From Candidatus Poribacteria bacterium (GTDB lineage: Bacteria; Poribacteria; WGA-4E; WGA-3G), in NCBI GenBank assembly GCA_026702755.1, contig JAPPBX010000110.1, positions 1 to 63,192 on the forward strand: DNA of 63,192 bases, written 5' to 3'. Below, piece by piece: positions 38,675 to 56,099 of this stretch; the first letter of the stretch is position 1; each line of letters starts with the position of its first letter. Position numbers and translations under genes: made by a program. The notes below the pieces were generated by a model, which ran no database searches, had not been told where the DNA came from, and saw only the letters and a program-made list of their open reading frames with translations.

Positions 38675-39043
38675 ATGCTAATAGAGTATCTTCCGATCTT
38701 GTTGTTAGGACTATTCGCAGTCCTCTTTGCGGGTATTAATCTCGCCCTGACCCATATTCTTGGACCCAAACGCCCGAACCGTGTCAAACTCTCCGTTTAC
38801 GAATCCGGCGTTCAACCAATTGGCGATGCAAGGCAACGGTTTACCATCCGGTTTGACCTCATCGCGATGCTCTTTATCATCTTTGATATTGAAGTGGTTT
38901 TCCTCTACCCGTGGGCGGTGGTCTTTAAGAAATTCTCTGAGACGAGCGGTTTATTTATTTTAATTGAAATGCTGGTGTTTATCGGTATTCTTCTTCTGGG
39001 CTATATCTATGCTTGGAGGAAAGGAGGCTTAACATGGGATTAG
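38675..39043 (+). CDS. nuoA: NADH-quinone oxidoreductase subunit A
   Basis: A 122-aa membrane subunit with three hydrophobic helices. The conserved loop [20 protein letters not shown] and [20 protein letters not shown], with acidic residues in helix 2, identify NuoA. It is the first gene of the complex I operon. A TTGACA at 38554-38559 is a possible -35, but I see no good -10 at the right distance. It overlaps nuoB by 10 bp. Confidence 0.94.
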
Positions 39044-39549
39044 ATTTTGTTGGACAAGGTGCCGGACAGACGGATGGTAACATCATCACCACGACTATTG
39101 ATAAGGTCGTCAACTGGGGACGAAAGAACTCGTTGTGGCCGATGCCCTTCGGGACAGCGTGCTGTGCAATCGAGATGATGGCGACCTTGGCTTCTAAATT
39201 TGACCTCTCTCGGTTCGGTTCTGAGGCGATCCGCTTTTCACCGCGCCAATCCGATCTACTCATCGTTTCCGGCAGAATCTCCATCAAAATGATGCCGGTG
39301 CTGAAACGTATCTATGACCAGATGCCGGATCCGAAATGGGTAATTTCGATGGGAGCATGCGCTTCCTGCGGTGGGGTGTTCGATACCTATACTCTTATCC
39401 AAGGTGTCGATCAGTTTATTCCTGTGGATGTATACATTCCTGGATGTCCACCACGCCCCGAAGACCTCATTGATGCGGTGCTACAGGTGCAGCAGAAAAT
39501 CACCAGTGGTGCCTCACCTAAAGGCGTAGAGCATCTCCTTGAAACTTGA
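39034..39549 (+). CDS. nuoB: NADH-quinone oxidoreductase subunit B
   Basis: A 171-aa subunit that carries iron-sulfur cluster N2, the last centre before quinone. The ligands are visible as [19 protein letters not shown] and [13 protein letters not shown] use the ATG at 39034, 7 bp after AAAGGAGG, rather than the in-frame codon at 39013. It overlaps the end of nuoA. Confident. Confidence 0.95.
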
Positions 39550-39578
39550 AAATGAAATAGGAACAGCAGAGGCACTTT

Positions 39579-40124
39579 ATGAATGAAGAAAAAGAAGTTG
39601 AAGAACAATCAAAACCGCTTGTCCTTGAAAAATTAGAGGAACATCACGCGGATGCACTCTTAGCACAGGACGAAGCGCGCGGCACCGTCGTTGTTATACG
39701 TAAAGAACAGGCTTACGCGGTTTTGGAATATCTAAAAACAGATCCTGAACTCGCCTATACCTTTCTTGTTGATGTTACTGCTCTTGACAATTCACAGATG
39801 GAATCCGAGTTGATACAGTTTGACTACGCGAGGTTCATGGTTGTCTATCAGCTCTATTCCTATCAGGGACAGGGGCGTGTTCGAGTAAAGGTGCCTGTGC
39901 ATGAAAACGACCTGAACGTCACATCTGTTACTGGGTTGTGGCAGGGCGCGAATTGGTTGGAGCGTGAGACCTACGACATGTTCGGTATCAATTTTGAGGG
40001 GCATCCCGATCTCCGTCGAATTTTAATGCCTGACGATTTTGAGGGACACCCACTTCGGAAAGATTATCCGCTCCGTGGACGTGGCGAGCGTGAACGCTTT
40101 AATTTTGATAAGCAGAATGTGTAG
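39579..40124 (+). CDS. nuoC: NADH-quinone oxidoreductase subunit C
   Basis: A 181-aa hydrophilic subunit of the quinone module. The family signature is [20 protein letters not shown] followed by [20 protein letters not shown]. It is not fused to NuoD, unlike in E. coli. The first 25 residues are acidic and variable. A heptad-repeat element of about 140 bp separates it from nuoD. Confidence 0.93.
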
Positions 40125-40131
40125 ATTTAAT

Positions 40132-40272: not shown

Positions 40273-40291
40273 ATAAAAAAAGGAGTATTCT

Positions 40292-41488
40292 ATGCAAGGT
40301 GGGCTGGAACGAGCGACAGGCGAGAAGATGATTCTCAGCTTCGGTCCGCAACATCCTGCGACACACGGTACCCTTCGTATTGTGTTAGAACTTGATGGCG
40401 AATCCGTTTTGAAAGCGACACCACATGCTGGCTACCTGCATACCGGATTCGAGAAACTCGGTGAACATCTGGATTACAACCAGTACATTGTTGTGACAGA
40501 TCGGATGAACTATTTGTCGCCACTGTCGAACAATTTCGGATATGTACTTGCCGTCGAACAGCTGCTCGGCATTGAAGTCACAAAACGGTGTCAATATATT
40601 CGTATTTTAATGGCGGAACTCTCGCGACTTGCTGATCATCTATTATGGTTGGGAACCGCTGCACTCGATTTAGGGGCATTTTCAGTATTCCTCTATAGTT
40701 TCCGCGAACGTGAAAAGTTGTATAGCATCTTTGAAAAGACAACCGGAGCAAGGTTGACGACGAGTTACACCCGCGTAGGGGGTGTTCTCCGAGATTTGTA
40801 TGATGGGTGTGAAGAAGATATCCGTCAATTCATCGGCAACTTCCCAAAAGCACTAAAAGAGACCCATACCCTGCTCACACGGAATCGGATCTGGATGGAT
40901 CGCACGAAAGGTGTTGGAGCCATTTCAGCTGATGATGCTATTGGTTATGGATTAACGGGTCCTTGCCTCCGCGCCACTGGCATAGCACATGATATACGTA
41001 AGGCTGAACCATATTCCAGTTACGAGGAAGTCACCTTTGATGTACCAGTTGGAACTAACGGTGATGCCTATGATCGTTACCTCGTTCGGATGGAGGAGAT
41101 GATTCAGAGTTGTGGTATCGTTACCCAAGTTTTGGATAATATGCCTGACGGACCGGTCAATCTTGAAGATAACAAGGTTACAATGCCGGACAAGTCCGAT
41201 GCCTATGGGCATATTGAGGGATTAATCCATCACTTTAAGATTGTTATGGATGGGCACGGCGTGCAACCGCCACAAGGCGAACACTATTGTGCAACCGAAT
41301 CACCGAACGGCGAACTTGGTTTTTATATAGTCAGCGATGGCAGCGGCACCGCTTATCGTATCCGTATCCGTCCGCCGAGTTTCCTGCACTTCCAGGCACT
41401 GCCGCGTATGTTAGAGGGTGGAATGGTTTCTGACACTGTAGCAGTGTTGGGGAGTCTCAATGTCATCGCGGGTGAATTAGATCGGTAA
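40292..41488 (+). CDS. nuoD: NADH-quinone oxidoreductase subunit D
   Basis: A 398-aa subunit forming the quinone-binding pocket with NuoB. Typical elements are SFGPQHPATHGTLRIVLELD, LHTGFEKLGEHLDYNQYIV and the end GSLNVIAGELDR. The quinone-site His and Tyr lie in the first and third of these. An AAAGGAG site precedes the ATG. Confident. Confidence 0.96.
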   Translation: MQGGLERATGEKMILSFGPQHPATHGTLRIVLELDGESVLKATPHAGYLHTGFEKLGEHLDYNQYIVVTDRMNYLSPLSNNFGYVLAVEQLLGIEVTKRCQYIRILMAELSRLADHLLWLGTAALDLGAFSVFLYSFREREKLYSIFEKTTGARLTTSYTRVGGVLRDLYDGCEEDIRQFIGNFPKALKETHTLLTRNRIWMDRTKGVGAISADDAIGYGLTGPCLRATGIAHDIRKAEPYSSYEEVTFDVPVGTNGDAYDRYLVRMEEMIQSCGIVTQVLDNMPDGPVNLEDNKVTMPDKSDAYGHIEGLIHHFKIVMDGHGVQPPQGEHYCATESPNGELGFYIVSDGSGTAYRIRIRPPSFLHFQALPRMLEGGMVSDTVAVLGSLNVIAGELDR

Positions 41489-41525
41489 CTTTGTCAGAGT
41501 CTACTGTCTGTTTTAGGAGGTGTCA

Positions 41526-41870: not shown

Positions 41871-41931
41871 TTTTGGAAGTTTTCACAAAGACAGATAAAG
41901 TAATTTTGATGGGAGTGGACTTAATAAATTC

Positions 41932-42303
41932 ATGAAACTAAAAGTCATTATCCATAAAGCTGAAGAAGGCGGATATTGGGCGGAAGTGCCATCACTTGCT
42001 GGTTGTGCTACACAAGGTGACACTTTTGAAGAATTACTTGAAAACATCTATAAAGCAATTGAAGGGTATTTATCCGTAGATGTTAACTTAGAAACCCAAT
42101 TTGCGCTTTGCATCGAAAACAAAAGTTGTGAAGACATAGAGAAGCGAAAATTCTACCGAATTCTGCCTGATGAAAAAGCGACCCGTGAAGGCTATCTGCG
42201 AGTCATTGATGAATCTCAGGAAGACTACTTGTATCCCGAATCTTATTTTATTTCTCTTGAACTACCTCGCAAAGTACAGGAGGCATTCGTAGCGGCAGTC
42301 TAA
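41932..42303 (+). CDS. HicB-like protein with an extra C-terminal domain
   Basis: A 123-aa protein. Residues 1-55 match the HicB-type antitoxin fold ([40 protein letters not shown]). Residues about 70-123 are a separate small module ([20 protein letters not shown]) like short stand-alone proteins seen in cyanobacteria and relatives. There is no HicA toxin gene beside it, and no DNA-binding tail as in true HicB antitoxins. It is the second passenger between nuoD and nuoE, so it may be a solitary HicB-fold protein rather than part of a toxin-antitoxin pair. Confidence 0.7.
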
Positions 42304-42438
42304 TGGAAGGGTTTTTGATAAACCTAATATCTCTCTTCTCAGCCTAAGACCGCAAGCCCGAAACGAAGTGGAGGGGTTTTTGATTGGGTGTTTCTTCAGC
42401 TCTTGAGCGAAAGCGTCAAAGCACAAACCACGTCCTTT

Positions 42439-42466
42439 AACCGCAAGGAAAGTTAAAAATATGTCA
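42439..42466 (+). repeat. Duplicated translation-start segment, copy at nuoE
   Basis: A 28-bp stretch from AACCGCAAGGAAA to the nuoE ATG and its next codon is repeated with one mismatch at 48502-48529 before nuoK. It supplies the AAGGAAA ribosome site of both genes. Confidence 0.65.
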
Positions 42467-42985
42467 GATGAACTCATTCAAATCGAAACGCCTTTCGCGT
42501 TTAACGAAGAAAATCAGCGTGAATTCGACGAATTGATAGGGCGGTATCCTATTAAGGAGGCGGCGATGCTGCCGACGCTCCATCTCGCGCAGAATCAGGC
42601 AGGCTATATCACTCCTGCAGTCATGAAGTATGTCGCAGAGCAACTTGAGGTCTCCGTGATGAAGGTCAAGGATGTTGTCACTTTCTATCCGATGTTCTTT
42701 GAAGAACCGGTGGGACAGTACGTGATTCGGGTATGCCATACGCTACCTTGTGCGTTGCGAGACTGTAAAGTTGTTTTGGACCATCTTAAGACGAAACTGA
42801 ACACAGATGTCGCTTCCGAAACCAACCTCGCGAAAGGTACAACAGCTGACGGTAAGTTCACGCTCATGAAAGTAGAATGCCTCGCTTCGTGCGATGTTGC
42901 GCCCGTCATTATGGTGAATGGCGATTTACATAAAAATTTAACCCCGGAAAAAGTTGATGAGCTTTTAGCGACGCTTGCGAGCTAA
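42461..42985 (+). CDS. nuoE: NADH-quinone oxidoreductase subunit E
   Basis: A 174-aa thioredoxin-fold subunit with a [2Fe-2S] cluster. The four ligands are in VCHTLPCALRD and VECLASCDVAP. The N-terminal helical part reads IGRYPIKEAAMLPTLHLAQN. The start segment is shared nearly word for word with nuoK. The stop lies within the first copy of a 37-bp tandem duplication. Confidence 0.93.
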   Translation: MSDELIQIETPFAFNEENQREFDELIGRYPIKEAAMLPTLHLAQNQAGYITPAVMKYVAEQLEVSVMKVKDVVTFYPMFFEEPVGQYVIRVCHTLPCALRDCKVVLDHLKTKLNTDVASETNLAKGTTADGKFTLMKVECLASCDVAPVIMVNGDLHKNLTPEKVDELLATLAS

Positions 42986-43039
42986 AACTTGCTATACTAA
43001 AGTAGCGACGCTTGCAAGCTAAAACTTGCTATACTAAAG
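42966..43039. repeat. 37-bp tandem duplication at the end of nuoE
   Basis: Copies at 42966-43002 and 43003-43039 differ at one base (GCGAGC versus GCAAGC). The first copy includes the last nuoE codons and its TAA; the second reproduces them out of the gene. The second copy also contains the palindrome GCTTGCAAGC. Confidence 0.85.
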
Positions 43040-43063
43040 TAGACAATTTGTAGAGGAGAAGGT

Positions 43064-44539
43064 ATGGTTGAAGAAAGACGGATTCTCTACGAGCATCTGG
43101 ATGTACCTGATATTAACACGTTCGATGTCTTTCGGCAATATGACGGCTACACCCGTTTTGAGAAAGCAATTGCGGAATATCAACCTGAAGAGATCGCTAA
43201 AATGGTGTTGGATTCAGGCTTGAAAGGCAGAGGCGGTGCCGGTTTTTCTACTGGGGAAAAATGGAGTTTTGTCCCAAGGGATATAAAGCCCTGCTACCTC
43301 TGTTGCAACGCCGATGAAAGCGAACCAGGGACATTCAGTAACCGTTACGTCTTGGAGAAAAATCCACACCTATTGATTGAAGGTATCCTGATCTGCTGCT
43401 ATGCGATGGGCATTGAGACAACTTACGTCTACATTCGGGGTGAATTTACGCTCGGTAAAAAGATGTTGGATGCTGCCATCAAGGAGGCTTATGAAAAAGG
43501 TTACCTCGGCAAAAATATTCGTGGCACGGGACTCAACATTGACATCTATACACACCCGGGAGCCGGTGCCTATATCTGTGGCGAGGAGACGGGATTAATT
43601 GAATCGCTTGAGGGCAAACGCGGACAGCCTCGAAACAAACCGCCGTTCCCTGCTGTCGAAGGTGTGTTCAGAAAACCCACCGTCGTGCAGAATGTTGAGA
43701 CGTTATGCAACCTACCTTTCATTATCGGTAATGGTGTTGAATGGTACACACAGATGGGCCCGACGTATGCCGATACGCGGTTTGATCCACCGAAACCTGA
43801 TGCCAATACCGGCACAAAACTCTATTGCATTAGTGGTGATGTCAATGAACCGGGTGTTTATGAACTTGATCTCGGCTTGACGTGTACAGAACTCATTGAG
43901 GTTGCAGGTGGTTTACGTGGCGAAGAGGTGAAAGCCGTCATCCCGGGTGGCAGTTCCGCACCGATTTTGACGCACTATGAGTTAGACACGCGGCTCGATT
44001 TTACCTCACTTACACTCGCCAAGTCGATGCTCGGTTCCGGTGGTATCATCGTCATGAACGAGACCCGCAATATCGTGGATTGTTTGCTCAACATCATGAA
44101 GTTCTATGCCCATGAATCGTGCGGACAGTGCACGCCGTGCCGTTGGGGTACACCGTGGGTGCGCGATATTGTTCAACGGATTGCCGATGGAAACGGACGA
44201 AAAGACACTATCACACGACCCAAATTCGGTGTCGCTGAAGGCGGCAGATGGGGCGATACCGGCGAAACGGAAGAGATTTACGAAGACTTGGATCTGCTGG
44301 AGAGTGTCGCCAATAACATTGCGAATGTGGACACGATGACATGGAATACGATATGTGTCTTTGGCATTGCTGTCTCGTGGCCAGCCGTGAGTTATATGCG
44401 CAAATTCCGGCCCGAATTTGAAGCCGCCATTCGTGAAAGTAAACTTGTTACCTTGCCTGTTGCCGAGGCGACAGTCCCACCGGAGGAAAACTACGCATAT
44501 CAGCAGCGGTTTGTTCCAAAAGAGTTCGCTGACCTATAG
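43064..44539 (+). CDS. nuoF: NADH-quinone oxidoreductase subunit F (NADH/FMN-binding)
   Basis: A 491-aa subunit that oxidises NADH through FMN and passes electrons to cluster N3. The NADH/FMN site is GLKGRGGAGFSTGEKW and CNADESEPGTFSNR. The [4Fe-4S] ligands are ESCGQCTPCRWGTPW and a later Cys in NTICVFG. It is longer than the usual ~430-445 residues, mainly by an insertion (KFGVAEGGRWGDTGETEEIY) between the third and fourth cluster ligands. GAGGAG lies before the ATG. Confidence 0.95.
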   Translation: MVEERRILYEHLDVPDINTFDVFRQYDGYTRFEKAIAEYQPEEIAKMVLDSGLKGRGGAGFSTGEKWSFVPRDIKPCYLCCNADESEPGTFSNRYVLEKNPHLLIEGILICCYAMGIETTYVYIRGEFTLGKKMLDAAIKEAYEKGYLGKNIRGTGLNIDIYTHPGAGAYICGEETGLIESLEGKRGQPRNKPPFPAVEGVFRKPTVVQNVETLCNLPFIIGNGVEWYTQMGPTYADTRFDPPKPDANTGTKLYCISGDVNEPGVYELDLGLTCTELIEVAGGLRGEEVKAVIPGGSSAPILTHYELDTRLDFTSLTLAKSMLGSGGIIVMNETRNIVDCLLNIMKFYAHESCGQCTPCRWGTPWVRDIVQRIADGNGRKDTITRPKFGVAEGGRWGDTGETEEIYEDLDLLESVANNIANVDTMTWNTICVFGIAVSWPAVSYMRKFRPEFEAAIRESKLVTLPVAEATVPPEENYAYQQRFVPKEFADL

Positions 44540-44571
44540 GGCATAACTGGCGATAGCCGAAAGGAACACCT

Positions 44572-44874
44572 ATGATGAAAACCTTGTTTTTTGCCATTGT
44601 GGGCCTTTTATGCCTGAGCACTGTCACTACCGCCGAACTGAGTGTTGAGGGTTTAGAGAAGATCCGGCAAATTGTTAACGAAGCCGAGGTGCGTTTAGAA
44701 AAGCGCATCACTGAACGCTTCACAGAGCAGAGCAAAAGGTTAGACTTTCTGGGAACATTGGTAATAACACTCATCGGCGCGCTTATAGCCTTTGTAGGTG
44801 TCCCATTAGCCCTCATTGCGTATCAGCAGAACAGACGCACACAACAAGAGGATACCATAAAGCACAAGCCATAG
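44572..44874 (+). CDS. Small secreted/membrane coiled-coil protein, C-terminus probably frameshifted
   Basis: A 100-aa protein with a signal peptide (MMKTLFFAIVGLLCLSTVTT), a charged helical stretch (LEKIRQIVNEAEVRLEKRIT) and one membrane segment at about residues 60-82. After KHKP the frame stops. In the alternative frame the sequence continues as AQAIEIQVLREKIETLEKLL to a TGA at 44925-44927, a good coiled coil. This suggests a one-base change near 44840-44865 that shortened the protein. It is a passenger between nuoF and nuoG; the family is unknown. Confidence 0.55.
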   Translation: MMKTLFFAIVGLLCLSTVTTAELSVEGLEKIRQIVNEAEVRLEKRITERFTEQSKRLDFLGTLVITLIGALIAFVGVPLALIAYQQNRRTQQEDTIKHKP

Positions 44875-44970
44875 AGATCCAGGTATTGCGCGAGAAAATT
44901 GAGACACTTGAAAAATTGTTAAGTTGACGTAAGCGTAATTTCCCTGGTAGGAATACATTGGAGTAAATTT

Positions 44971-46620
44971 ATGGCACTAATTAAATTGAATGACCTTGAG
45001 ATAGAGGTTGAAGATGGAACGAATGTAGTCGAGGCAGCAAGGCAACACGGCATTGAGGTGCCTCACTACTGTTATCACCCTGGATTGACCCGTCCTGCGA
45101 ATTGTAGGATGTGCCTCGTTGAACCACACGAATTCTTTCCACCTGCTGGCGCGATTGTTCCGGCACGACAACTCGCGACAGGATGCACAATGGTGCTGAG
45201 AACAGCACCTCCCGAAAGGAAACTTGACGGAAAGTACGACTCCATTGTCTATACAGATAGTCCGCGCGTCAAAAAGGCACGCGAGGACATACTGGAATTT
45301 CTGCTCGTGCATCATCCACTTGACTGTCCCGTCTGTGATCAGGCTGGTGAATGCGACCTGCAAGACTATAGTTATCGGCATGGACATGATAAAAGCCGGT
45401 ATATTGAGGTCAAAAATGTTCCACCCAAGAAAGACTTGGGACCGGATGTGCTCCTTTACTCAACGCGCTGTGTCGTCTGTACCCGGTGTATCCGATTTGC
45501 GGAAGAGGTTTCAGGAACTGGTGAATTAGGCTTAATTAACCGCGGTTCCCATGATGAAATTGATATTCCGAGAAGCCACGAAGGCGTTCCTTTGCAGGTA
45601 TTAGATAACAAGTTGGCGGGAAATGTCGTTGACATTTGCCCCGTCGGGGCATTGATTAGCAAAGATTTCCTGTTCAAGTCTCGTCCGTGGTTTATGGAGA
45701 AGGCGAACAGTGTCTGTTCAGGATGTAGTGTCGGCTGTAATATTACTGTAGAATATAAAGCCGATGGCGTATATAGACTCAAGCCGCGTTTCCACGAGGA
45801 TATTAACCAGCATTGGATGTGTGACGATGGTCGTCTCGGTTACCACTATGTGAACAGTGATGACCGTCTCCAACTCCCGCTTAAACGGGTAGATGACGAA
45901 CTCTCTCCGACACATTGGGCAGATGCCATAGCAACAATCACAGAAAAATTGTCCGAAGTGGAAGCTGAGGATATCGTGGTTATTGGCTCTGCACAAGGCA
46001 CGAATGAGGATAACTACGTTCTGCAGCAGTTTGCTCACGATGTACTGAAGACAACGCAATTGGGACTCTTTGGGCAGTCGCCGGGTGAAGAACATAAATT
46101 CCCACAATTTACAATTGAAGCGGACAAGAATCCGAATACCGCTGGTGCGCGAACCATACTCGGTTCCGCGAACGGGAACGTCGTTTTAGAAGGCGACGCG
46201 CTTTGGGAGAAGGTATCGGATGCCAAAGTGGTTTACCTTGTTAGCGGCGCGTCTGAACGTATCCTTGAGGATGCCGAAAAAGCTGCATTAGAGAGTGTCG
46301 ATTTTCTTATCGTGCAGGACGTTTTACCATCAGAGGTGACGCAATTAGCAGATGTGGTGTTGCCCGGAACGACCTTCGCGGAGAAAGATGGCACTTTCAC
46401 CAATTCGACGGGTTGGGTACAACGGATTCGCAAAACAATTGATCCACCGGGTGAAGCGCGTGTAGATTGGGAGATTACACAGCAGCTTGCCAAGCAGTTG
46501 GGTGGTGAGATGAACTACCACTTTGCTGGTGAGATTGCGCTCGCGATTGCTGAAAATGTGCCAGGCTATACTGACGCAACACATCAGAAAATTGGGGATG
46601 CGGGAATTAAGTTAACCTAA
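44971..46620 (+). CDS. nuoG: NADH-quinone oxidoreductase subunit G, short form
   Basis: A 549-aa subunit with several iron-sulfur clusters. The [2Fe-2S] ligands are in CYHPGL and NCRMC plus a later Cys in ATGCTM. The next set is HHPLDCPVCDQAGECDL (His and Cys ligands), followed by CVVCTRCIRF with CPVGAL, and the molybdopterin-type CSGCSVGCNI with a Cys in HWMCDDG. The C-terminal molybdopterin-like region is much shorter than in E. coli (about 900 aa). Still, the cluster-binding N-terminal part looks intact. Confidence 0.94.
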   Translation: MALIKLNDLEIEVEDGTNVVEAARQHGIEVPHYCYHPGLTRPANCRMCLVEPHEFFPPAGAIVPARQLATGCTMVLRTAPPERKLDGKYDSIVYTDSPRVKKAREDILEFLLVHHPLDCPVCDQAGECDLQDYSYRHGHDKSRYIEVKNVPPKKDLGPDVLLYSTRCVVCTRCIRFAEEVSGTGELGLINRGSHDEIDIPRSHEGVPLQVLDNKLAGNVVDICPVGALISKDFLFKSRPWFMEKANSVCSGCSVGCNITVEYKADGVYRLKPRFHEDINQHWMCDDGRLGYHYVNSDDRLQLPLKRVDDELSPTHWADAIATITEKLSEVEAEDIVVIGSAQGTNEDNYVLQQFAHDVLKTTQLGLFGQSPGEEHKFPQFTIEADKNPNTAGARTILGSANGNVVLEGDALWEKVSDAKVVYLVSGASERILEDAEKAALESVDFLIVQDVLPSEVTQLADVVLPGTTFAEKDGTFTNSTGWVQRIRKTIDPPGEARVDWEITQQLAKQLGGEMNYHFAGEIALAIAENVPGYTDATHQKIGDAGIKLT

Positions 46621-46657
46621 GTCTGTAGTCTTTTGGAACTATCAAGAAGGAGAAAAT

Positions 46658-47842
46658 ATGCCTCTTCTCGTTTTAATCCTCAGTTCAGCTGTCAAAATCG
46701 TCATCATTGTCCATCTGCTGCTTATCGGTGTGATGGCAATGATATGGTCGGAACGCCGGGTGAGCGGATGGATGCAGGATCGGTTGGGACCGAATCGTGT
46801 TGGACCGCAAGGGCTGCTCCAACCTATCGCAGACGGGCTTAAATTCCTGTTTAAAGAGGATCTTATCCCGGATCACGTAGATAAGCCGCTTTACGTGCTT
46901 GCGCCAGCAATGTTGTTAGTCCCCGCACTTGTTACGGTGGCAGTTGTGCCATTTGGGAATGCTATCACGCTATTTGGGTATGAGATACCTCTCCAGATCG
47001 CGGACATCAACATCGGCATTCTGTACGTCTTAGCGATAACGTCGCTTGGAGTCTACGGCGTTGTGCTTGGGGCGTGGGCATCGAATAATAAGTACTCGCT
47101 TTTGGGTGGTTTGCGTTCGTCCGCGCAGATGATTAGTTACGAGTTGACACTCGGATTGGCGATTATTGGTGTATTGATGCTGACAAGTTCGCTCAGCCTT
47201 CGGACAATCGCGATAGAACAAGGGGCGTATCCTTGGCAGTGGAACTTCCTAATTCACTTCCCGGCGTTTCTTGCGTTCACGACTGCGATGTATGCGGAAA
47301 CGAACCGGTTACCGTTTGACCTTGCAGAAGCCGAACAGGAACTCGTCGCGGGGTATCACACCGAATACAGCAGCATGAAATTCGCGATGTTTTTCATGGC
47401 GGAATATATGAACATGATTGTCGGTTCCGCTGTGACAGTAACGCTCTTTTTAGGCGGATGGCATTTCTTCGGCTTGGAAAACGTCGGAGGTCCTGTGTGG
47501 AGTGGACTTATCTCGTTCGGTATCTTCTTTGCCAAGACAGCGATTTTCCTGTTCGTGTTTATTTGGGTCCGCTGGACACTGCCTCGGTTCCGCTACGATC
47601 AGCTCATGAACTTAGGTTGGAAATTCTTGTTACCTGTTGCCTTGAGTTCAATTGTCGTAACCGGTACCTTATGGATAACGACTGGCTCTCGTCTGATGGT
47701 GGGTATTGGCAACGTGGTTGCGGCGTTCATCGTTGTGTCAATAGTGGCAGGGCTGCTTGTCATGAACAAGACACCTGAACCAGCAATACAGGATAGCAAT
47801 CAGCAAATTACCCCCAGCAGCGCACTGGACGCTATAGAATAG
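46658..47842 (+). CDS. nuoH: NADH-quinone oxidoreductase subunit H
   Basis: A 394-aa membrane subunit that links the quinone site to the proton-pumping arm, with about eight to nine hydrophobic segments. Family signatures are SERRVSGWMQDRLGPNRVGP near the N-terminus, and ETNRLPFDLAEAEQELVAGY in the middle (with quinone-channel acidic residues). The C-terminal tail of ~25 polar residues is unusual. nuoJ starts only 11 bp after its stop: nuoI, normally here, is missing. Confidence 0.95.
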   Translation: MPLLVLILSSAVKIVIIVHLLLIGVMAMIWSERRVSGWMQDRLGPNRVGPQGLLQPIADGLKFLFKEDLIPDHVDKPLYVLAPAMLLVPALVTVAVVPFGNAITLFGYEIPLQIADINIGILYVLAITSLGVYGVVLGAWASNNKYSLLGGLRSSAQMISYELTLGLAIIGVLMLTSSLSLRTIAIEQGAYPWQWNFLIHFPAFLAFTTAMYAETNRLPFDLAEAEQELVAGYHTEYSSMKFAMFFMAEYMNMIVGSAVTVTLFLGGWHFFGLENVGGPVWSGLISFGIFFAKTAIFLFVFIWVRWTLPRFRYDQLMNLGWKFLLPVALSSIVVTGTLWITTGSRLMVGIGNVVAAFIVVSIVAGLLVMNKTPEPAIQDSNQQITPSSALDAIE

Positions 47843-47853
47843 GAGGCGTGTGA

Positions 47854-48381
47854 ATGAATCCAGAACAGATACTATTTATTCTCTTTGGAGCGGTCGCGCT
47901 GATTGGTGCGATTGCTGTTATTTCGTTTCGACATCCAATTTATAGCGCGCTTTCGCTGATTGTAACGTTCTTCGCGCAAGCAGGGCTTTTCGTCCTGTTG
48001 GGTGCACATTTCGTTGCGGCTGTCCAAGTAATCGTCTATGCCGGCGCAATCATGGTCCTGTTCCTCTTTGTGATTATGCTCCTGAACCTCGGCACACTCT
48101 CGGCGAAAGGGGCTATTGGACGGAAACTCAAAGGTTTCGCGATAATCTTAGGTATTCTCTTGGCTGCTGAGGGCATCTATATCGCAATGAATGCGATCAA
48201 CGATACCGCGGTTGCATCTGCACAGACTGCTACGGAATCGGTAACGACGACCACTTATGACATTGGCGAACTTTTGTTCAGCAAGTATCTCTTGCCATTT
48301 GAGGTTACCTCGCTTATTTTGTTGGCGGCATTGATTGGTGTTATCGTCTTGGTAAAACGCGAAAGTCAAGAAGAAAATTAA
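47854..48381 (+). CDS. nuoJ: NADH-quinone oxidoreductase subunit J
   Basis: A 175-aa membrane subunit with five hydrophobic helices. Typical elements are FRHPIYSALSLIVTFFAQAG and VIVYAGAIMVLFLFVIMLLN, the pi-bulge helix of TM3. The GAGGCG ribosome site overlaps the end of nuoH. It is followed by a 142-bp gap with the hairpin TGTTAT..ATAACA (48411-48426) and the duplicated nuoK start segment. Confidence 0.93.
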   Translation: MNPEQILFILFGAVALIGAIAVISFRHPIYSALSLIVTFFAQAGLFVLLGAHFVAAVQVIVYAGAIMVLFLFVIMLLNLGTLSAKGAIGRKLKGFAIILGILLAAEGIYIAMNAINDTAVASAQTATESVTTTTYDIGELLFSKYLLPFEVTSLILLAALIGVIVLVKRESQEEN

Positions 48382-48501
48382 AGTCGGTAATCACCAGTCG
48401 GTAGATGAGGTGTTATCTTTATAACATCAAGAACATAGCCTGTAATGTAATGGAAGGCGGGTCTACGGCGGTAGCTGTTGAAGTTCCAAGTCCCTTGACC
48501 G

Positions 48502-48529
48502 AACCGCAAGGAAAATTAAAAATATGTCA
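48502..48529 (+). repeat. Duplicated translation-start segment, copy at nuoK
   Basis: Matches 42439-42466 with a single mismatch and ends in the ATG and second codon of nuoK. Confidence 0.65.
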
Positions 48530-48823
48530 TTAGAGTATTATCTCATATTGAGCGCACTCTTGTTTACAATCGGAGTAATCGGAGTCCTCATCCGCAGGAA
48601 CGCTATTATCATCTTTATGTGTATTGAGTTGATGCTGAATGCGGCGAACCTCGCCTTTGTAGCAATCGGCCGGAGCCTCGGTGAGGCAACTGGACAGGTG
48701 TTCGTTTTCTTCGTGATGACCGTTGCTGCCGCTGAGGTCGCAATTGGGCTCGCAATCATTGTAAGCGTTTTCAAACATCGACAGACAATTAACGTAGATG
48801 AGGTTAATTCGTTAAAAGGCTAA
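48524..48823 (+). CDS. nuoK: NADH-quinone oxidoreductase subunit K
   Basis: A 99-aa MrpC-like membrane subunit with three helices. Conserved acidic residues for proton transfer are in [17 protein letters not shown] and [14 protein letters not shown]. Normal length. The start uses the same upstream segment as nuoE. The next gap to nuoL holds a heptad-repeat element. Confidence 0.95.
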
Positions 48824-48824
48824 A

Positions 48825-48920
48825 GTTAGCAGTCGGTAGTCAGCCATCGGCTTTCGATATGTGGTAGGTGCGTATCGTTTGCACGCTACAAGCGATTCTT
48901 TACTGATAGCCGATAGCCAT
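48825..48920. repeat. Heptad-repeat intergenic element, copy 6 (nuoK-nuoL)
   Basis: Left half: units of the CAGTCGG/TAGTCAG type. Right half: CTGATAGCCGATAGCC, giving 7-bp spaced CGATAG units. The element ends about 13 bp before the nuoL ATG. Confidence 0.65.
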
Positions 48921-48933
48921 AAAAGGATAAAAT

Positions 48934-50823
48934 ATGTCACAAGAACTAATTGTTGTCCTGTTAGTTGCCCCGCTTGTTGGGTTTCTGATTAATGGGTTAT
49001 TTGGAAAATGGCTAAAAAGTAACGAGAAACTGAGCGGATGGATAGGTGCGCTTGCAGTGCTTGTCTCCTTAGTCTGTTCGATTATAGCCTTTACCAGTTT
49101 GAACGGCGGTGCTGCCCCGTTTGATGAAGTGCTTTATGAATGGATTACGGGCGAGTCGTTCGCTTTCAATATCGGCTTTCGCGTCGACGCGTTGACAGCA
49201 GTCATGTTGTTGGTCATTACGGGTGTCGGTTTCCTCATCCATGTCTATTCAATCGGTTACATGCACGGCGATGAAGGATATACCCGCTATTTTGCCTACC
49301 TAAATCTGTTTGTTTTCGCAATGTTAATTCTCGTCCTCGGCAACAACTACCTGATGATGTTTGTCGGATGGGAAGGCGTTGGTCTCTGCTCTTATTTACT
49401 GATTGGGTTCTGGTATGACAAGCAATCAGCAACGGATGCTGGGAAAAAGGCTTTTATTGTGAACCGGATTGGTGATTTCGGTTTCCTGCTGGGGATGTTT
49501 ACGCTGTTTGCAGCCTTCGGAACCCTCGATTTCGGGGCAATGTTTGAAGCCGCTGAAGCAGATAATTTTCAGAAAGTCTTTGGAGCCAGTACCCTCGTGG
49601 TCGCAACATTGCTACTCTTCGTCGGCGCGATTGGTAAATCAGCGCAGATACCGCTCTATGTATGGCTACCGGACGCAATGGAAGGTCCAACGCCCGTTAG
49701 TGCGTTGATTCACGCTGCGACAATGGTAACCGCAGGGGTGTATATGATAGCACGCTCGGCTGTGCTTTACGACATCGCGCATACCGGTGAGGTTGTCGCA
49801 TGGATTGGTGTCCTGACTGCGTTCCTCGCTGCAACGATAGCACTTGCACAAAACGATATTAAACGCATCCTCGCCTATTCCACCGTGAGTCAGCTCGGTT
49901 ATATGTTCGTTGGCGTTGGGGTTGGTGCTTATGCGTCAGGTGTGTTCCACTTGGTAACGCATGCCTTCTTTAAAGGATTGATGTTCCTTACCGCCGGTAG
50001 TGTAATGCACGCGATGGCGAATGAACTGGATATGCGGAAGATGGGCGGCTTGAAGGCGAAGATGCCGATAACGCATTGGACATTTTTGATCGGCGCACTT
50101 GCCATCGCAGGATTTCCGTTTCTTAGCGGTTTCTGGAGCAAGGATGAAATCCTACACAGTGCATGGAGCAGCTCTCCCATAATTTACGTTATCGGGTTAG
50201 TGACAGCGTTCCTAACAGCGTTTTATATGTTCCGCTTAATCTTTGTGACATTTTATGGTGAATCTCGCGTTGAATCCGAAGTTGAATCGCATCTGCACGA
50301 ATCACCGCCAGTCATGTGGCTGCCGTTGGCGATCTTAGCGATTCCTTCTGCTTTGATCGGTTTGCTATTGGGCTGGGGCGGACATGGAAGTTGGTTCCAT
50401 CATTTCACGAAGAGCGTTTTTCCAGAGGCACATCATGATGCATCGGGGAATGTTATCTTGTTTATGGTAATTTCATCGGTCGTTGGTTTGGCAGGTATTG
50501 CGTTTGCATGGATGCGTTATAGCAAACGGGTGCCGTCTGATGAACCTACCAATGCGATACATAAATTTGTTGCAAATAAGTACTACGTTGATGAGGTTTA
50601 TAACTCGCTTATTGTGCAACCGATCAAGAATGCTTCTCACTATCTATTGTGGCGGATTGTAGATAACGGCGTTATCGACGGAATTGTCAATGGCGTGGCT
50701 GCTATCATTCGGGTGATTGGTGGAACATTACGACGACTCCAGACAGGACTCGTCCAGGCTTACATCGTGTCAATGGTTTTAGGAATTGTGTTATTCCTTG
50801 CCTACTATCTATTTTTTGCTTAG
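48934..50823 (+). CDS. nuoL: NADH-quinone oxidoreductase subunit L
   Basis: A 629-aa antiporter-like proton-pumping subunit with about 14-16 membrane segments. Signatures are GWEGVGLCSYLLIGFWY (TM5 Glu region), QIPLYVWLPDAMEGPTPVSA and ALIHAATMVTAGVYMIARS. The long lateral helix region follows at the C-terminus. Normal length. It precedes the DUF5069 gene and nuoM. Confidence 0.96.
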   Translation: MSQELIVVLLVAPLVGFLINGLFGKWLKSNEKLSGWIGALAVLVSLVCSIIAFTSLNGGAAPFDEVLYEWITGESFAFNIGFRVDALTAVMLLVITGVGFLIHVYSIGYMHGDEGYTRYFAYLNLFVFAMLILVLGNNYLMMFVGWEGVGLCSYLLIGFWYDKQSATDAGKKAFIVNRIGDFGFLLGMFTLFAAFGTLDFGAMFEAAEADNFQKVFGASTLVVATLLLFVGAIGKSAQIPLYVWLPDAMEGPTPVSALIHAATMVTAGVYMIARSAVLYDIAHTGEVVAWIGVLTAFLAATIALAQNDIKRILAYSTVSQLGYMFVGVGVGAYASGVFHLVTHAFFKGLMFLTAGSVMHAMANELDMRKMGGLKAKMPITHWTFLIGALAIAGFPFLSGFWSKDEILHSAWSSSPIIYVIGLVTAFLTAFYMFRLIFVTFYGESRVESEVESHLHESPPVMWLPLAILAIPSALIGLLLGWGGHGSWFHHFTKSVFPEAHHDASGNVILFMVISSVVGLAGIAFAWMRYSKRVPSDEPTNAIHKFVANKYYVDEVYNSLIVQPIKNASHYLLWRIVDNGVIDGIVNGVAAIIRVIGGTLRRLQTGLVQAYIVSMVLGIVLFLAYYLFFA

Positions 50824-50900
50824 GCTGACTGGATTTTGATGTGGCGCGAGGTATTCCTACCTTGCAATCCTTTTTTAGGCAGTGCTAACGGAGAATGAAG

Positions 50901-51329
50901 ATGGGAAAGAGCACTTTTCGACCGCGGGATATAATCAACAAAGAGGTTGCCGGTATCTGCGGTGTTGCAAGGTTAACAGATAAAGCACGAGCCGCACATG
51001 CTGGTGAAATCGGAAATTATAAGTACGGTGCTGAATCCACACAGGATACAGGAATTTTGTCCTTTCTCGGTATTTCAGCGGAGGCTTTTCAGGAAGCCGC
51101 TGTGCATATTGACAATGATGTCAAGCTTGGAGCATGGATTTTGGATAACTCCAAGAAGTCATCTGAGGAAATATCGGCGTTCAATCGTAAGATGAAAACT
51201 TGGTGGCAGAACAACATGCCGAGTGACGACTTTTCAAAACGTCGCCGCAAATTAGCTGAAAAAGATGAAGACCGTTGGCTTTTTTGGTTCTTCCCTTCGG
51301 CGTGGCTCTGGAAACGTTTTTTTAAATAG
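50901..51329 (+). CDS. DUF5069-family protein inside the nuo operon
   Basis: A 142-aa protein resembling DUF5069 (RLTDKARAAHAGEIGNYKYG, then ILSFLGISAEAFQEAAV and a trailing helical region). The function of this family is unknown. The C-terminal end is aromatic (WLFWFFPSAWLWKRFF), which might attach it to the membrane. The ATG at 50901 sits 7 bp after GGAG; the ATG at 50895 is only one base from it. It is a passenger between nuoL and nuoM. Confidence 0.7.
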   Translation: MGKSTFRPRDIINKEVAGICGVARLTDKARAAHAGEIGNYKYGAESTQDTGILSFLGISAEAFQEAAVHIDNDVKLGAWILDNSKKSSEEISAFNRKMKTWWQNNMPSDDFSKRRRKLAEKDEDRWLFWFFPSAWLWKRFFK

Positions 51330-51360
51330 TAACTTATTTCTTCGAGAGAGAAGATCCCGG

Positions 51361-51374
51361 TTGGCGTACGCCAA
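51361..51374. repeat. Perfect 14-bp palindrome upstream of nuoM
   Basis: TTGGCGTACGCCAA reads the same on both strands. It could be a binding site for a dimeric regulator, or a remnant repeat; no neighbouring -35/-10 pair supports a promoter there. Confidence 0.45.
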
Positions 51375-51407
51375 GTTGGGGTAAACTGTTACATACAGAG
51401 GCTCTTA

Positions 51408-51439
51408 ACCGACGATTGACAACCGATAACCGATAACCA
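51408..51439. repeat. Heptad-repeat element, copy 7 (half element before nuoM)
   Basis: Units ACCGACG, ATTGACA, ACCGATA, ACCGATA in tandem, ending about 8 bp before the nuoM ribosome site. Only the right-hand half is present. Confidence 0.6.
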
Positions 51440-51456
51440 TTAAAACGGAGGTTTCC

Positions 51457-53019
51457 TTGTTACTTTCAATAGTCATTTTTTTACCATTACTTGGCGTGAT
51501 AGCAATCGCATTGCTCAGGGGACTCGGCGCAACCGCTGTGAAAGGCATCGCGCTTGTCATTGGGCTTCTGACGTTTGTTATCTCGTTGGGGCTTTATACC
51601 GGGTTTGACGCAACCACTGCAACATTCCAGAATGTCACTCAAGAAGAATGGATCCCCGGTTTAGGCACAAAATACCACATCGGTATAGATGGTATTTCGT
51701 TGTGGTTAGTGTTGTTGACAACGTTCCTGACCCCAGTGTGTATCCTTGCCGCATGGAATTCTGTGGAAAAAGGGTTGAGCGGTTTTATGATGTCGCTTCT
51801 CGCACTTGAAACCGGGATGTTGGGTGTCTTCTGTGCTTTGGATCTGTTCCTCTTTTTCGTCTTTTGGGAGGCGATGCTAATCCCGATGTACTTCCTCATC
51901 GGTATCTGGGGTGGGGAACGTCGGATTTATGCCACCGTGAAGTTCGTCCTTTATACGATGGCAGGCAGCGCGCTTATGCTCGTCGGCATTTTGGTGCTGT
52001 ACTTCCAAAACGGGAACAGTTTTGACTTCACAACGCTCAGCGGTCCATTTGAACATTCGCATCTGTTATTCCTCGCGTTTTTTATCGCGTTTGCGATTAA
52101 GGTGCCCCTCTTTCCGTTCCATACGTGGCTCCCAGATGCCCACGTTGAAGCACCTACGGTCGGGAGTGTAATCCTTGCCGGAGTCCTACTGAAGATGGGA
52201 ACTTATGGAATCGTCCGATTTTGCCTACCGCTCTTTCCCGATGCCGCTACGCAATTCACACCTTTGATTGTAACCCTCGCTGTCATCGGCATCATCTATG
52301 GAGCGTTGGTAGCCATGGTGCAACCAGATCTGAAAAAGCTGGTGGCATACTCCAGTGTGAGTCACCTCGGTTTTGTTGTATTGGGACTCTTTTCAAAGAG
52401 TGCTGCAGCAATTCAGGGAAGCGTGTTGCAAATGATTAATCACGGCTTAAGTACAGGGGCGTTGTTCCTCTTAGTCGGGATGATTTATGAACGACGGCAC
52501 AGTAGGATGATTGTTGATTTCGGTGGCTTGTCAAAACGGATGCCGATTTTTGCTGTAATTTTTATGATTGTAACGTTGTCATCCATTGGACTACCGGGTT
52601 TGAACGGGTTCGTTGGCGAATATATGATATTGTTCGGAAGTTTTGATCAGGGTGCTTTCTCTAAAGTATACGTCGTCTTCGCAACCGCAGGTGTGATCCT
52701 GGCAGCCGTATATATGCTGTGGATGTTCCAACGGGTGATGTTCGGAACACTTGATAAAACTAATGCAGAGTTGCCTGACTTGAACGCGCGCGAAGTTGTT
52801 GTGATGCTTCCACTACTTCTGTTCATCGTCTGGATCGGTGTTTATCCAAAGCCTTTTCTGAGTAAGATGGAGAAATCGGTAGGTCTTGTTGTGACAAAAG
52901 TGCAGACCGAACCTGCTATGGGTCGCGCTGAAAAACAGATGCTCGGAGACCCTCAACTCGTACTACAAGAGACGCAGCGCGCACAACGTGAAGATATTGA
53001 AAAGGAGGCACGGCAGTAG
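51457..53019 (+). CDS. nuoM: NADH-quinone oxidoreductase subunit M
   Basis: A 520-aa antiporter-like subunit with about 14 membrane segments. Hallmarks are FWEAMLIPMYFLIGIWGGER and PLFPFHTWLPDAHVEAPTVG, plus the conserved LKKLVAYSSVSHLG. The start is a TTG, supported by GGAGG upstream and by the family N-terminus. The C-terminal ~50 residues are polar and rich in Gln/Arg. It is followed by the NhaD gene rather than nuoN. Confidence 0.95.
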   Translation: MLLSIVIFLPLLGVIAIALLRGLGATAVKGIALVIGLLTFVISLGLYTGFDATTATFQNVTQEEWIPGLGTKYHIGIDGISLWLVLLTTFLTPVCILAAWNSVEKGLSGFMMSLLALETGMLGVFCALDLFLFFVFWEAMLIPMYFLIGIWGGERRIYATVKFVLYTMAGSALMLVGILVLYFQNGNSFDFTTLSGPFEHSHLLFLAFFIAFAIKVPLFPFHTWLPDAHVEAPTVGSVILAGVLLKMGTYGIVRFCLPLFPDAATQFTPLIVTLAVIGIIYGALVAMVQPDLKKLVAYSSVSHLGFVVLGLFSKSAAAIQGSVLQMINHGLSTGALFLLVGMIYERRHSRMIVDFGGLSKRMPIFAVIFMIVTLSSIGLPGLNGFVGEYMILFGSFDQGAFSKVYVVFATAGVILAAVYMLWMFQRVMFGTLDKTNAELPDLNAREVVVMLPLLLFIVWIGVYPKPFLSKMEKSVGLVVTKVQTEPAMGRAEKQMLGDPQLVLQETQRAQREDIEKEARQ

Positions 53020-53020
53020 G

Positions 53021-53038
53021 CGCGATCTCCGTATCGCG
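53021..53038. repeat. Short palindrome in the nuoM-nhaD gap
   Basis: CGCGAT (53021-53026) and ATCGCG (53033-53038) flank CTCCGT. It occupies most of the 33-bp gap and resembles the other REP-like palindromes of this window. Confidence 0.5.
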
Positions 53039-53052
53039 ACTCTCGATTATAA

Positions 53053-54543
53053 ATGAAGTTTAAACTTGCATCTTGTCTTATTCTCTGTGTAATTTTCGGA
53101 CTTGTATTAGCTGTTTCAATGGAAGCCTTGGGCGCAGATGACCCGCATGGCGGCGAAGGTGCACATCATGGTCATGGCGTAGACGGCGCAAAATTGCCTA
53201 TCTGGAGTATTATTCCTTTCGTTGGTATTTTGCTATCGATTGCAATTTTCCCACTTGTGTTAGACTCACACTTTCTCGTTCATCACGGTGGGAAAATGTC
53301 GTTGGTCTGGGCATCAGTCTTCGCGATCCCCTATCTTGTTGCTTTTCGAGGAGAAGCTTTTTACGACATCCTGCACATCTATCTATTAGACTATATCCCA
53401 TTCATCCTTCTTTTGTGGGGTTTGTTCACAGTTGCGGGTGGGATTCTCGTGCGTGGCACGTTGCGTGGCACACCGGTCCTCAATACGTTCTTACTGTTAA
53501 TCGGCACAGTGATCGCATCATGGGTCGGAACTACAGGCGCATCAATGCTCCTGATCCGTCCTTTAATCCGAGCAAATGCATACCGAAAGAATAAGGTTCA
53601 TCTAATTGTCTTTTTCATCTTTCTCGTAAGTAACATCGGTGGTTCTTTAACACCAATAGGAGACCCCCCTCTATTCCTCGGGTTTCTCCGCGGCGTGCCG
53701 TTCTTCTGGACAACTACGGCATTATTCCCGCACATGTTACTTATAAGCGTAGTGTTACTTATTCTGTTCTTTATATTTGACACTTTGATGTTTAAACGCG
53801 AAGGAGGCGTGGTACCAGACGATGGAACCAATGAACCTGTTCGCGTAGAGGGACTTTTCAACCTCGTCTTCCTGTTCGGGATCATTGCTGCTGTTCTCAT
53901 GAGCGGTACTTTCAAGTGGGGCGAGGTCAACATCCTTGGCGTTCATGTATATTGGCAAAATATTGCGCGTGAAGCCTTGATTGTTATTATGGGGTTACTG
54001 TCACTTAAATATACACCCTTCAGTGGTGAATTACGTCAATCCAACGAATTTTCATGGGAGCCGATTGAAGAGGTTGCCAAGGTGTTTGCTGGTATCTTTA
54101 TGACCATTATTCCAGCATTGGCAATCCTGAAAGCAGGGGAGAACGGCGCGCTGGCAGGTTTAATTGGTGCTATGCAACAACCGTACCACTATTTCTGGAT
54201 TACTGGTGTTTTGTCCAGTTTCTTGGACAATGCCCCAACATATTTGACATTCTTCAATACCGCACTTGGAAAATTACACCTTACTGAAACAGTTGTACCG
54301 CAAATTCTGACAGGTCAATTGACGGAACCACAACACCTTGAGTTTATCAAATTGCTAACGGCTATCTCTGTCGGAGCAGTTTTCATGGGCGCGAATACCT
54401 ATATCGGCAATGCCCCGAATTTCATGGTCAAAGCAATCGCGGAACAAAGCGGTATCCGCATGCCAAGCTTTTTCGGGTATATGCTCTGGTCAGTGGTGAT
54501 CTTATTCCCGCTCTTTGTGGTTGTAACATTTGTGTTCCTGTAA
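53053..54543 (+). CDS. nhaD: NhaD-type Na+/H+ antiporter embedded in the nuo operon
   Basis: A 496-aa ion transporter of the ArsB/NhaD permease superfamily, with about 12 hydrophobic segments. The diagnostic block is NIGGSLTPIGDPPLFLGFLR, with VGTTGASMLLIRPLIRANAY before it and GAVFMGANTYIGNAPNFMVK near the C-terminus. After a signal-like first helix there is a His-rich loop, DPHGGEGAHHGHGVDG (about residues 29-44), perhaps a pH- or metal-sensing segment. NhaD exchanges Na+ or Li+ for protons. Its place between nuoM and nuoN suggests that the complex I proton gradient is coupled to sodium export in this organism; this is inference. It is not homologous to nuoL/M/N. Confidence 0.87.
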   Translation: MKFKLASCLILCVIFGLVLAVSMEALGADDPHGGEGAHHGHGVDGAKLPIWSIIPFVGILLSIAIFPLVLDSHFLVHHGGKMSLVWASVFAIPYLVAFRGEAFYDILHIYLLDYIPFILLLWGLFTVAGGILVRGTLRGTPVLNTFLLLIGTVIASWVGTTGASMLLIRPLIRANAYRKNKVHLIVFFIFLVSNIGGSLTPIGDPPLFLGFLRGVPFFWTTTALFPHMLLISVVLLILFFIFDTLMFKREGGVVPDDGTNEPVRVEGLFNLVFLFGIIAAVLMSGTFKWGEVNILGVHVYWQNIAREALIVIMGLLSLKYTPFSGELRQSNEFSWEPIEEVAKVFAGIFMTIIPALAILKAGENGALAGLIGAMQQPYHYFWITGVLSSFLDNAPTYLTFFNTALGKLHLTETVVPQILTGQLTEPQHLEFIKLLTAISVGAVFMGANTYIGNAPNFMVKAIAEQSGIRMPSFFGYMLWSVVILFPLFVVVTFVFL

Positions 54544-54649
54544 TGGCAGTCGGCAGTCAGCAGTCGGCTTTCAGTGTTTGGCAGTTGCGTATTACTTCAC
54601 TGCCCTAATTACTCTTTACTGACAACCGATAGCCGATAGCCGATAGCCA
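54544..54649. repeat. Heptad-repeat intergenic element, copy 8 (nhaD-nuoN)
   Basis: The left half has CAGTCGG-CAGTCAG-CAGTCGG units; the right half has ACTGACA followed by CCGATAG repeated three times in tandem. It ends 7 bp before the nuoN ribosome site. Confidence 0.75.
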
Positions 54650-54668
54650 CAAAAAAAGGAGATTTTAA

Positions 54669-56099
54669 ATGCCGGTAATTAACTGGGGATTGCTGATGCC
54701 GGAACTGGTTATCGCTTTAACGCTGCTCATTGTCCTCGTTTTTGACCTGTTTGACTCGATCTCAAAAGCAGTCCTTGGCTGGATGACGATCGTTGGGGCT
54801 GGGATCGCGCTGTGGGTTTCTATACAGATGCACCACGCTGGCACGGTCGGCACCCAATTCAATGAAATGTTTAAAGTAGATAATTTCTCGCTCTTCTTCA
54901 ACATCATCTTCCTCGTCTCCACGATTTTGGTTGCGTTGATTTCGATGAGTTATTTGGACAGAAATGACAGGAAGCAGGGACCTTATTATCTACTTATTTT
55001 GCTGGCAACGCTGGGTATGATGTTAATGGCTGCTGGCAACGAACTGATTATCGTCTTCCTCGGCTTGGAACTGATGTCGTTGTCGCTGTATGTGTTGGCG
55101 GGTTATTTTCGGGAAAGTCCCGCTTCGAGCGAAGCTGGGATGAAGTACTTATTGCTCGGTGCATTTGCGAGTGCGTTTTTCTTGTACGGAATTGCGCTAA
55201 TTTATGGCGGTGCTGGCACAACAAGTGTACCCGCAATTGCTGAGGCAATTGCAGCCCCGAATAAATCGCCTCTGTTGTTAGCAGGGATGTTCTTGCTCAT
55301 CGTTGGGTTTGGGTTTAAAGTTGCGATTGTTCCATTCCATCAGTGGGCACCTGATGTTTACGAAGGCGCGCCGACAACAATAGCGGCGTTTATCTCCGCC
55401 GGACCGAAGGCGGCTGGATTTGCAGCGTTCCTCAGAATTTTCATGGAAGCACTACCGAACCTACAAGTGGAGTGGGGAAGCGTTCTCATTGTATTGGCGA
55501 TGTTGACAATGACCGTTGGCAATGTTATTGCAATTGCCCAAACGAACATCAAACGGATGCTCGCGTATTCCAGTATTGCGCATGCTGGTTATGTCTTAAT
55601 TGGATTGGCGGCTGCAAATAACGATGGGATCTCCAGTGCGATGCTTTATCTGCTCATTTATTGTGTGATGAACATTGGTGCATTCGGTGCGGTTATCTTG
55701 GCGAAAACGGAAGATGGTGAGAGTCTAATGATTTCTGATTACGCTGGACTTGGACTCCGAAAGCCGCTACTCGCGATGTTTATGACGGTAATGCTTTTAT
55801 CGCTCGCCGGTTTTCCACCAACTGCCGGATTTGTTGGGAAATTATATATCTTCAAATCCGCGGTTCAAGCGGGGCATATCTGGCTCGTCATTATCGGTGC
55901 TATAAACACCGCAATATCGGCGTTCTATTACCTGCGCGTCGTCGTAACGATGTATATGCGTGAGCCGGAAGAGGAACTGACGTTCACCTCGTATCCGAGC
56001 ACACTTGTTGTGGGGTTAGTCCTCGCAGCGATTGGTGTGCTGCTTATCGGTATTCTACCATCGCTCATGCTCACACCAGCACAGAATTCTGTTTTTTAA
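54669..56099 (+). CDS. nuoN: NADH-quinone oxidoreductase subunit N
   Basis: A 476-aa antiporter-like membrane subunit with about 14 segments. Signatures are IVFLGLELMSLSLYVLAGY (TM5 Glu), VPFHQWAPDVYEGAPTTIAA and NIKRMLAYSSIAHAGYVLIG. Normal length. AAAGGAG lies before the ATG. It closes the operon and is followed by a hairpin at 56110-56145. Confidence 0.95.
   Translation: MPVINWGLLMPELVIALTLLIVLVFDLFDSISKAVLGWMTIVGAGIALWVSIQMHHAGTVGTQFNEMFKVDNFSLFFNIIFLVSTILVALISMSYLDRNDRKQGPYYLLILLATLGMMLMAAGNELIIVFLGLELMSLSLYVLAGYFRESPASSEAGMKYLLLGAFASAFFLYGIALIYGGAGTTSVPAIAEAIAAPNKSPLLLAGMFLLIVGFGFKVAIVPFHQWAPDVYEGAPTTIAAFISAGPKAAGFAAFLRIFMEALPNLQVEWGSVLIVLAMLTMTVGNVIAIAQTNIKRMLAYSSIAHAGYVLIGLAAANNDGISSAMLYLLIYCVMNIGAFGAVILAKTEDGESLMISDYAGLGLRKPLLAMFMTVMLLSLAGFPPTAGFVGKLYIFKSAVQAGHIWLVIIGAINTAISAFYYLRVVVTMYMREPEEELTFTSYPSTLVVGLVLAAIGVLLIGILPSLMLTPAQNSVF

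Follow-up and report, generated by a model that had tools for sequence, protein, structure and literature searches.

The complex I operon of a Candidatus Poribacteria genome carries an NhaE-type gene, nhaE, inserted between nuoM and nuoN. Its product is likely an IT-superfamily Na+/H+ antiporter that is expressed together with complex I and works as a converter of ion currency rather than as a fixed subunit of the enzyme. The gene was found in a window of 63,192 nucleotides, the whole stretch of DNA that was analysed, and its relatives recur beside complex I, Na+-NQR or F-ATP synthase genes in Poribacteria and in other phyla.

The operon spans 38675-56099 with all genes on the plus strand, in the order nuoA-B-C-D-E-F-G-H-J-K-L-M-(nhaE)-N (Table 1). 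The nhaE reading frame starts with ATG, is complete and lies exactly at 53053-54543, and the complete antiporter gene that the preliminary description had placed between nuoM and nuoN was thus borne out by the frame itself and by the TIGR01972 and TIGR01770 models of its neighbours. It is separated from nuoM by 33 bp and from nuoN by 125 bp. Neither promoter-like nor terminator-like sites were found on the plus strand in these two gaps, and base composition (GC) is steady across the gene. True nuoM and nuoN flanks on the same strand, short gaps and the lack of a terminator make nhaE a member of the complex I operon. Other unrelated genes also reside between the nuo genes, namely a glyoxalase-like and a HicB-like/UPF0150 gene in the nuoD/nuoE gap, one small ORF in the nuoF/nuoG gap and a DUF5069 gene in the nuoL/nuoM gap, the latter being present in most loci near the window genus and missing from several more distant ones. 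In the nuoL/nuoM gap of some Poribacteria (L248, L249), DNA methyltransferase-like genes stand beside DUF5069.

Table 1. Features of the complex I operon of the window and of the inserted antiporter gene
Feature	Coordinates	Strand	Basis
nuoA	38675..39043	+	PF00507 127 bits
nuoB	39013..39549	+	PF01058 98 bits
nuoC	39579..40124	+	translation; 38% match to second-cluster NuoC
nuoD	40292..41488	+	translation; 43% match to second-cluster NuoD
nuoE	42461..42985	+	PF01257; TIGR01958 above cut-off
nuoF	43064..44539	+	PF01512, PF10589
nuoG	44971..46620	+	Nqo3 ferredoxin-like, NADH-G 4Fe-4S, molybdopterin domains
nuoH	46658..47842	+	PF00146 416 bits
nuoJ	47854..48381	+	position and translation; homologues at same place in relatives
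nuoK	48524..48823	+	NF004320 134 bits
nuoL	48934..50823	+	TIGR01974 783 bits
DUF5069 gene, nuoL/nuoM gap	50895..51329	+	PF16798 64.8 bits
nuoM	51457..53019	+	TIGR01972 619 bits (cut-off 263.8)
Predicted NhaE-type Na+/H+ antiporter gene (nhaE), 496 aa	53053..54543	+	PF16980 590.8 bits, full length
Signal-peptide-like N-terminus (aa 1-27), then His-rich low-confidence tail (aa ~28-44)	53053..53184	+	sequence; pLDDT < 50 at 28-39
nhaE-nuoN intergenic region	54544..54668	+	strong imperfect hairpin just upstream of nuoN ribosome-binding site
nuoN	54669..56099	+	TIGR01770 461 bits (cut-off 332.6)

No nuoI was found between nuoH and nuoJ in the window (46658-48381) or in L240, L246 and L250; a NuoI-like protein of the window genome is encoded in a second nuo cluster. 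This second cluster (G000:C18, locus L284, 8757-19823) has the order nuoB-C-D-H-I-J-K-L-M-N, and its nuoM and nuoN, both recognized by curated models, are separated by 7 bp that hold no insert. No nuoE, nuoF or nuoG was found in the fetched stretch of this cluster, and its NuoL has 749 aa.

The window protein matches PF16980 over the whole profile (E 2e-177) and PF03600 (CitMHS) with 52.7 bits, both above the Pfam gathering score, and its nearest named relatives all come from Candidatus Poribacteria MAGs, at no more than 92% identity. It is homologous over its full length (39% identity, 454 residues, E 2e-83) to a protein from a Rhodothermus marinus-like genome (L146), which itself scores 459 bits with PF16980. 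We take this genome to be that of R. marinus (DSM 4252), an assumption with which its nhaE-pcd gene pair also agrees. The R. marinus antiporter is the founder of a separate family, NhaE (PMC9408914), and full-length homology to this founder points to the window protein belonging with the NhaE family (TC 2.A.111; R. marinus, Neisseria meningitidis), with a common IT-superfamily fold and predicted antiport. The preliminary description had called the protein NhaD, a label that is wrong at the family level, as the NhaD model TIGR00775 gave no match with it up to E 10, and a search of the whole window genome with the same model found no NhaD. The NhaD family (TC 2.A.62) belongs to the same IT superfamily and Na+/H+ exchange would likewise be expected for the window protein, but that family differs from it in being recognized by TIGR00775.

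An AlphaFold2 model of the protein (pLDDT 86.6, pTM 0.84) was aligned with VIA-align to ArsB (Z 30.2, 391 residues, rmsd 3.7) and to NaS1 and NaDC3 (Z 24), and Foldseek found VcINDY (E 5e-6), Pho90 and NaS1 as neighbours; a sequence search of the PDB gave no match, while the fold search did. The model thus predicts an IT-superfamily fold of the ArsB/SLC13 type, as in ArsB and VcINDY. Pfam names PF16980 'putative citrate transport', a name that leaves the substrate of the window protein unproven. Transport of an organic or inorganic anion, citrate/dicarboxylate-like, coupled to Na+ or H+ and feeding respiration, would agree with the names of PF16980 and PF03600 and with ArsB and SLC13-type anion transporters being the best structural neighbours of the model. 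Nevertheless, this reading is improbable, since the PF16980 relative with a reported function, that of R. marinus, is a Na+/H+ antiporter, the IT superfamily takes in the Na+/H+ antiporters NhaB to NhaE (PMC9408914) and the gene linkage described below is to ion-motive machines. When produced in Escherichia coli, the R. marinus antiporter gave resistance to Na+ and not to Li+ (PMC9408914).

Alignment of 31 diverse family members revealed invariant core motifs near residues 160-169, 194-206, 387-400 and 443-459, among them GDPP (203-206), DNAPTYL (~392-398) and YIGNAPN (450-456). This core is conserved whatever the gene context. The 'His-rich loop' reported earlier corresponds in fact to a short low-confidence N-terminal tail (~28-44) that follows a signal-peptide-like helix; it differs between species, and homologues outside nuo operons carry one too.

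Among 85 Poribacteria genomes, 79 contain a PF16980 protein, 77 of them above the cut-off. The order nuoM-nhaE-nuoN was observed in 29 of the first 30 Poribacteria loci inspected and in ten more loci from other Poribacteria genera and families, deeply branching families of the class included, and the nuoM and nhaE frames of some relatives overlap by 1-4 bases. At locus L242, nuoM adjoins nhaE and no nuoN stands beside it, and two loci, L239 (genome G038) and L241 (G042), carry nhaE without nuo neighbours. The same order in single-contig genomes, three from the window genus (G005, G021 and G028; L017, L018 and L013) and G044 (L240), and in many MAGs from independent studies excludes an artefact of assembly or binning. 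Restriction of the insertion to a single assembly, on which the preliminary description had let its claim fall, was ruled out by these single-contig genomes and MAGs. In G002, G025 and G084, nhaE is in two halves, each close to or at the end of a contig; nuoM flanks one side and nuoN the other, which indicates an assembly break and not a split gene. Literature searches on nhaD in nuo operons and on antiporters in Poribacteria returned no earlier report for Poribacteria.

Given the several unrelated ORFs between other nuo genes of the window operon and the variable nuoL-nuoM gap, with its methyltransferase genes in L248, nhaE could be one more neutral passenger hitch-hiking among DUF5069, glyoxalase-like, HicB-like and small ORFs. 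However, it is retained throughout the class whereas the other inserts appear and disappear, unrelated lineages reach the same slot repeatedly and nothing is inserted between nuoM and nuoN of the second nuo cluster, so that a mere passenger appears very unlikely.

A precedent is available in R. marinus. Melo et al. are said to have located an antiporter gene and a pcd gene between nqo13 and nqo14 in 2005 and to have reported their co-transcription, and the antiporter was reportedly characterised by Melo et al. in 2006. In the R. marinus-like genome (L146) the order is nuoJ-K-L-M-nhaE-pcd-nuoN, and of 20 genomes examined in that part of the class, 19 share M-nhaE-pcd-N. The 2005 study (BBA 1709:95-103, PMID 16023073), as far as it is cited in PMC8063116, found an antiporter gene and a pcd gene within the R. 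marinus gene set for complex I. Together with the L146 gene order, this report as cited makes the arrangement already known in kind, and the statement of the preliminary description that no standard nuo operon was known to have this insertion does not hold. As in the window, a PF16980 antiporter occupies the nuoM/nuoN slot in the same direction, whereas in R. marinus pcd separates nhaE from nuoN; Poribacteria have no pcd there and encode Pcd elsewhere in the genome. The two proteins, only 39% identical, sit on separate long branches, which suggests either that the placements are independent or that one gene was replaced. What is new is the class-wide conservation, the repeated filling of the slot (or replacement within it), the nuo/nqr/atp pattern and the second complex I without insertion.

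Beyond Poribacteria, nuoM-nhaE-nuoN was found in several Fidelibacterota genomes and in a single genome each of Gemmatimonadota and Latescibacterota; among 60 genomes sampled around the Gemmatimonadota one, nhaE is rare (4 carriers). Other positions also occur: in Balneolales nhaE occupies the nuoK/nuoL gap on the opposite strand, with pcd between nuoM and nuoN, and in a KSB1 genome it lies upstream of nuoJ. Family members are present as well in Moorella, Herbaspirillum, Calditrichota, Myxococcota and others, so the link to a marine or sponge-associated life that had been proposed is not supported, the family not being specific to it.

Trees of 82-109 family members distribute the nuoM-nuoN placement over separate clades. 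A single clade for all nuoM-nhaE-nuoN placements was rejected (AU p 5e-40), and with it one origin for all of them, and it was rejected too when Rhodothermales were left out (AU p 8e-40); leaving out both Rhodothermales and L191 gave AU p 0.10, which is not a rejection. The groups were named by gene context, the subsets were chosen after the tree was seen and the branches are long. The trees and AU tests point to at least three independent fillings of the slot, or to its refilling through in-place replacement by distant relatives.

The family is not linked to complex I alone. A genome-collection scan by protein similarity alone gave 80 homologous loci, which do not represent independent events; in 42 of them, nuo, nqr or atp genes lie within 4.5 kb: 27 have nuo, eight nqr, five atp and two nuo plus atp. 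As for the rest, 22 have no linkage despite at least 2.5 kb on both sides and 16 are unlinked with flanks that are too short; about one third of the well-flanked homologues (22 of 64) have therefore no such neighbour. Neighbours were found with Nqr and Atp protein queries that were checked by models (nqrF TIGR01941 644 bits, nqrE TIGR01940, nqrC TIGR01938, NqrM, ApbE, and ATP synthase a, c and alpha). Among the 46 loci outside Poribacteria with linkage or with flanks of 2.5 kb or more on both sides, 24 are linked, whereas by our rough estimate a random gene would be expected this close to such operons in a few per cent of cases.

Several Poribacteria families have the order nuo...M-nhaE-N-atp. 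In G038 the nhaE-type nuo operon is gone from its place and nhaE directly precedes atp, and in G042 nhaE is flanked on one side by atp and on the other by an nqr cluster that includes apbE and nqrM, one unrelated gene intervening. Na+-NQR and F-ATP synthase clusters in Fidelibacterota, Myxococcota and some Poribacteria have the same antiporter family beside a primary ion-motive machine, although the primary pump differs from the complex I of the window. No earlier report of NhaE-type linkage to nqr or atp clusters was found in the papers searched. For a possible Na+-specific ATP synthase next to nhaE, the c-subunits were compared with the Na+ motif of Ilyobacter, and the agreement was mixed: f5 Poribacteria, Gemmatimonadota and Latescibacterota carry E-L or E-G, and Q plus E-S was seen in f3/f4 Poribacteria. 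The link between respiration and sodium balance put forward in the preliminary description is in keeping with operon position, class-wide conservation and nuo/nqr/atp linkage; the NhaD label and the tie to a marine or sponge-associated life are not supported.

NuoL, NuoM and NuoN of complex I are relatives of antiporters. NhaE might be an accessory subunit built into the membrane arm, where it would add a Na+ path, as its fixed place between two antiporter-like subunits in several lineages and the attribution of Na+/H+ exchange to the R. marinus complex itself (PMC5662883; PMC4607728) could suggest. Yet the constant association with complex I genes expected of a subunit was not observed, as homologues occur alone or with nqr or atp. 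Moreover, nhaE is kept in G038 and G042 without that nuo operon, it takes the opposite strand in the nuoK/nuoL gap of Balneolales, and its core is conserved irrespective of context. The persistence of nhaE beside atp when the neighbouring NADH dehydrogenase changes also argues against a structural role, and such a subunit is hardly probable.

For the favoured converter, we infer antiport and its direction, co-transcription with the nuo genes and a physiological role in Poribacteria along the following lines. Complex I would pump protons outward, and the antiporter would use part of this proton gradient to move Na+ out and H+ in, which would keep cytoplasmic Na+ low and build a sodium gradient for Na+-driven uptake. 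Beside Na+-NQR it might run in reverse and turn the sodium gradient into a proton gradient for ATP synthase. As a long branch separates the R. marinus protein from the Poribacteria clade, the activity could differ between them. More tentatively, and with somewhat less than even confidence, NhaE-type antiporters may form a general converter module that was repeatedly and independently recruited beside complex I, Na+-NQR or F-ATP synthase, including several nuoM/nuoN insertions, and whose direction is set by the neighbouring pump. The recurrence of one antiporter family next to nuo, nqr or atp points to a rule, open to testing, for the interconversion of H+ and Na+ gradients in bacteria.

Na+ exchange by complex I is debated, and R. 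marinus is a main example (PMC5662883). As Na+/H+ antiport was attributed there to complex I, the operon-encoded antiporter is an alternative to exclude in that organism. More broadly, a dedicated antiporter inside the complex I operon may also contribute Na+/H+ exchange to such membranes and needs controlling for.

The hairpin before nuoN has an MFE of -39.1 kcal/mol (z -3.66), and its region varies among relatives, with other sequence instead in some close ones. Imperfect palindromes of ~7-base units (GATAGCC-like) were observed at 54544-54668, 48824-48933, 51330-51456 and 40125-40291. About 2 kb upstream of nuoA, trkA and trkH (33763-36816) encode K+ uptake, so that one region combines K+ uptake, complex I and the predicted Na+/H+ antiporter. 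Outside Poribacteria, nhaE homologues are directly adjoined by universal stress protein genes in L203 (model-checked), L176 and L052 and by a small unnamed family of ~190-210 aa in L196, L071 and L080. Finally, in Calditrichota (L055, L058, L059) the homologue was seen by eye to be flanked by low-molecular-weight phosphatase-like and mutL-like genes.
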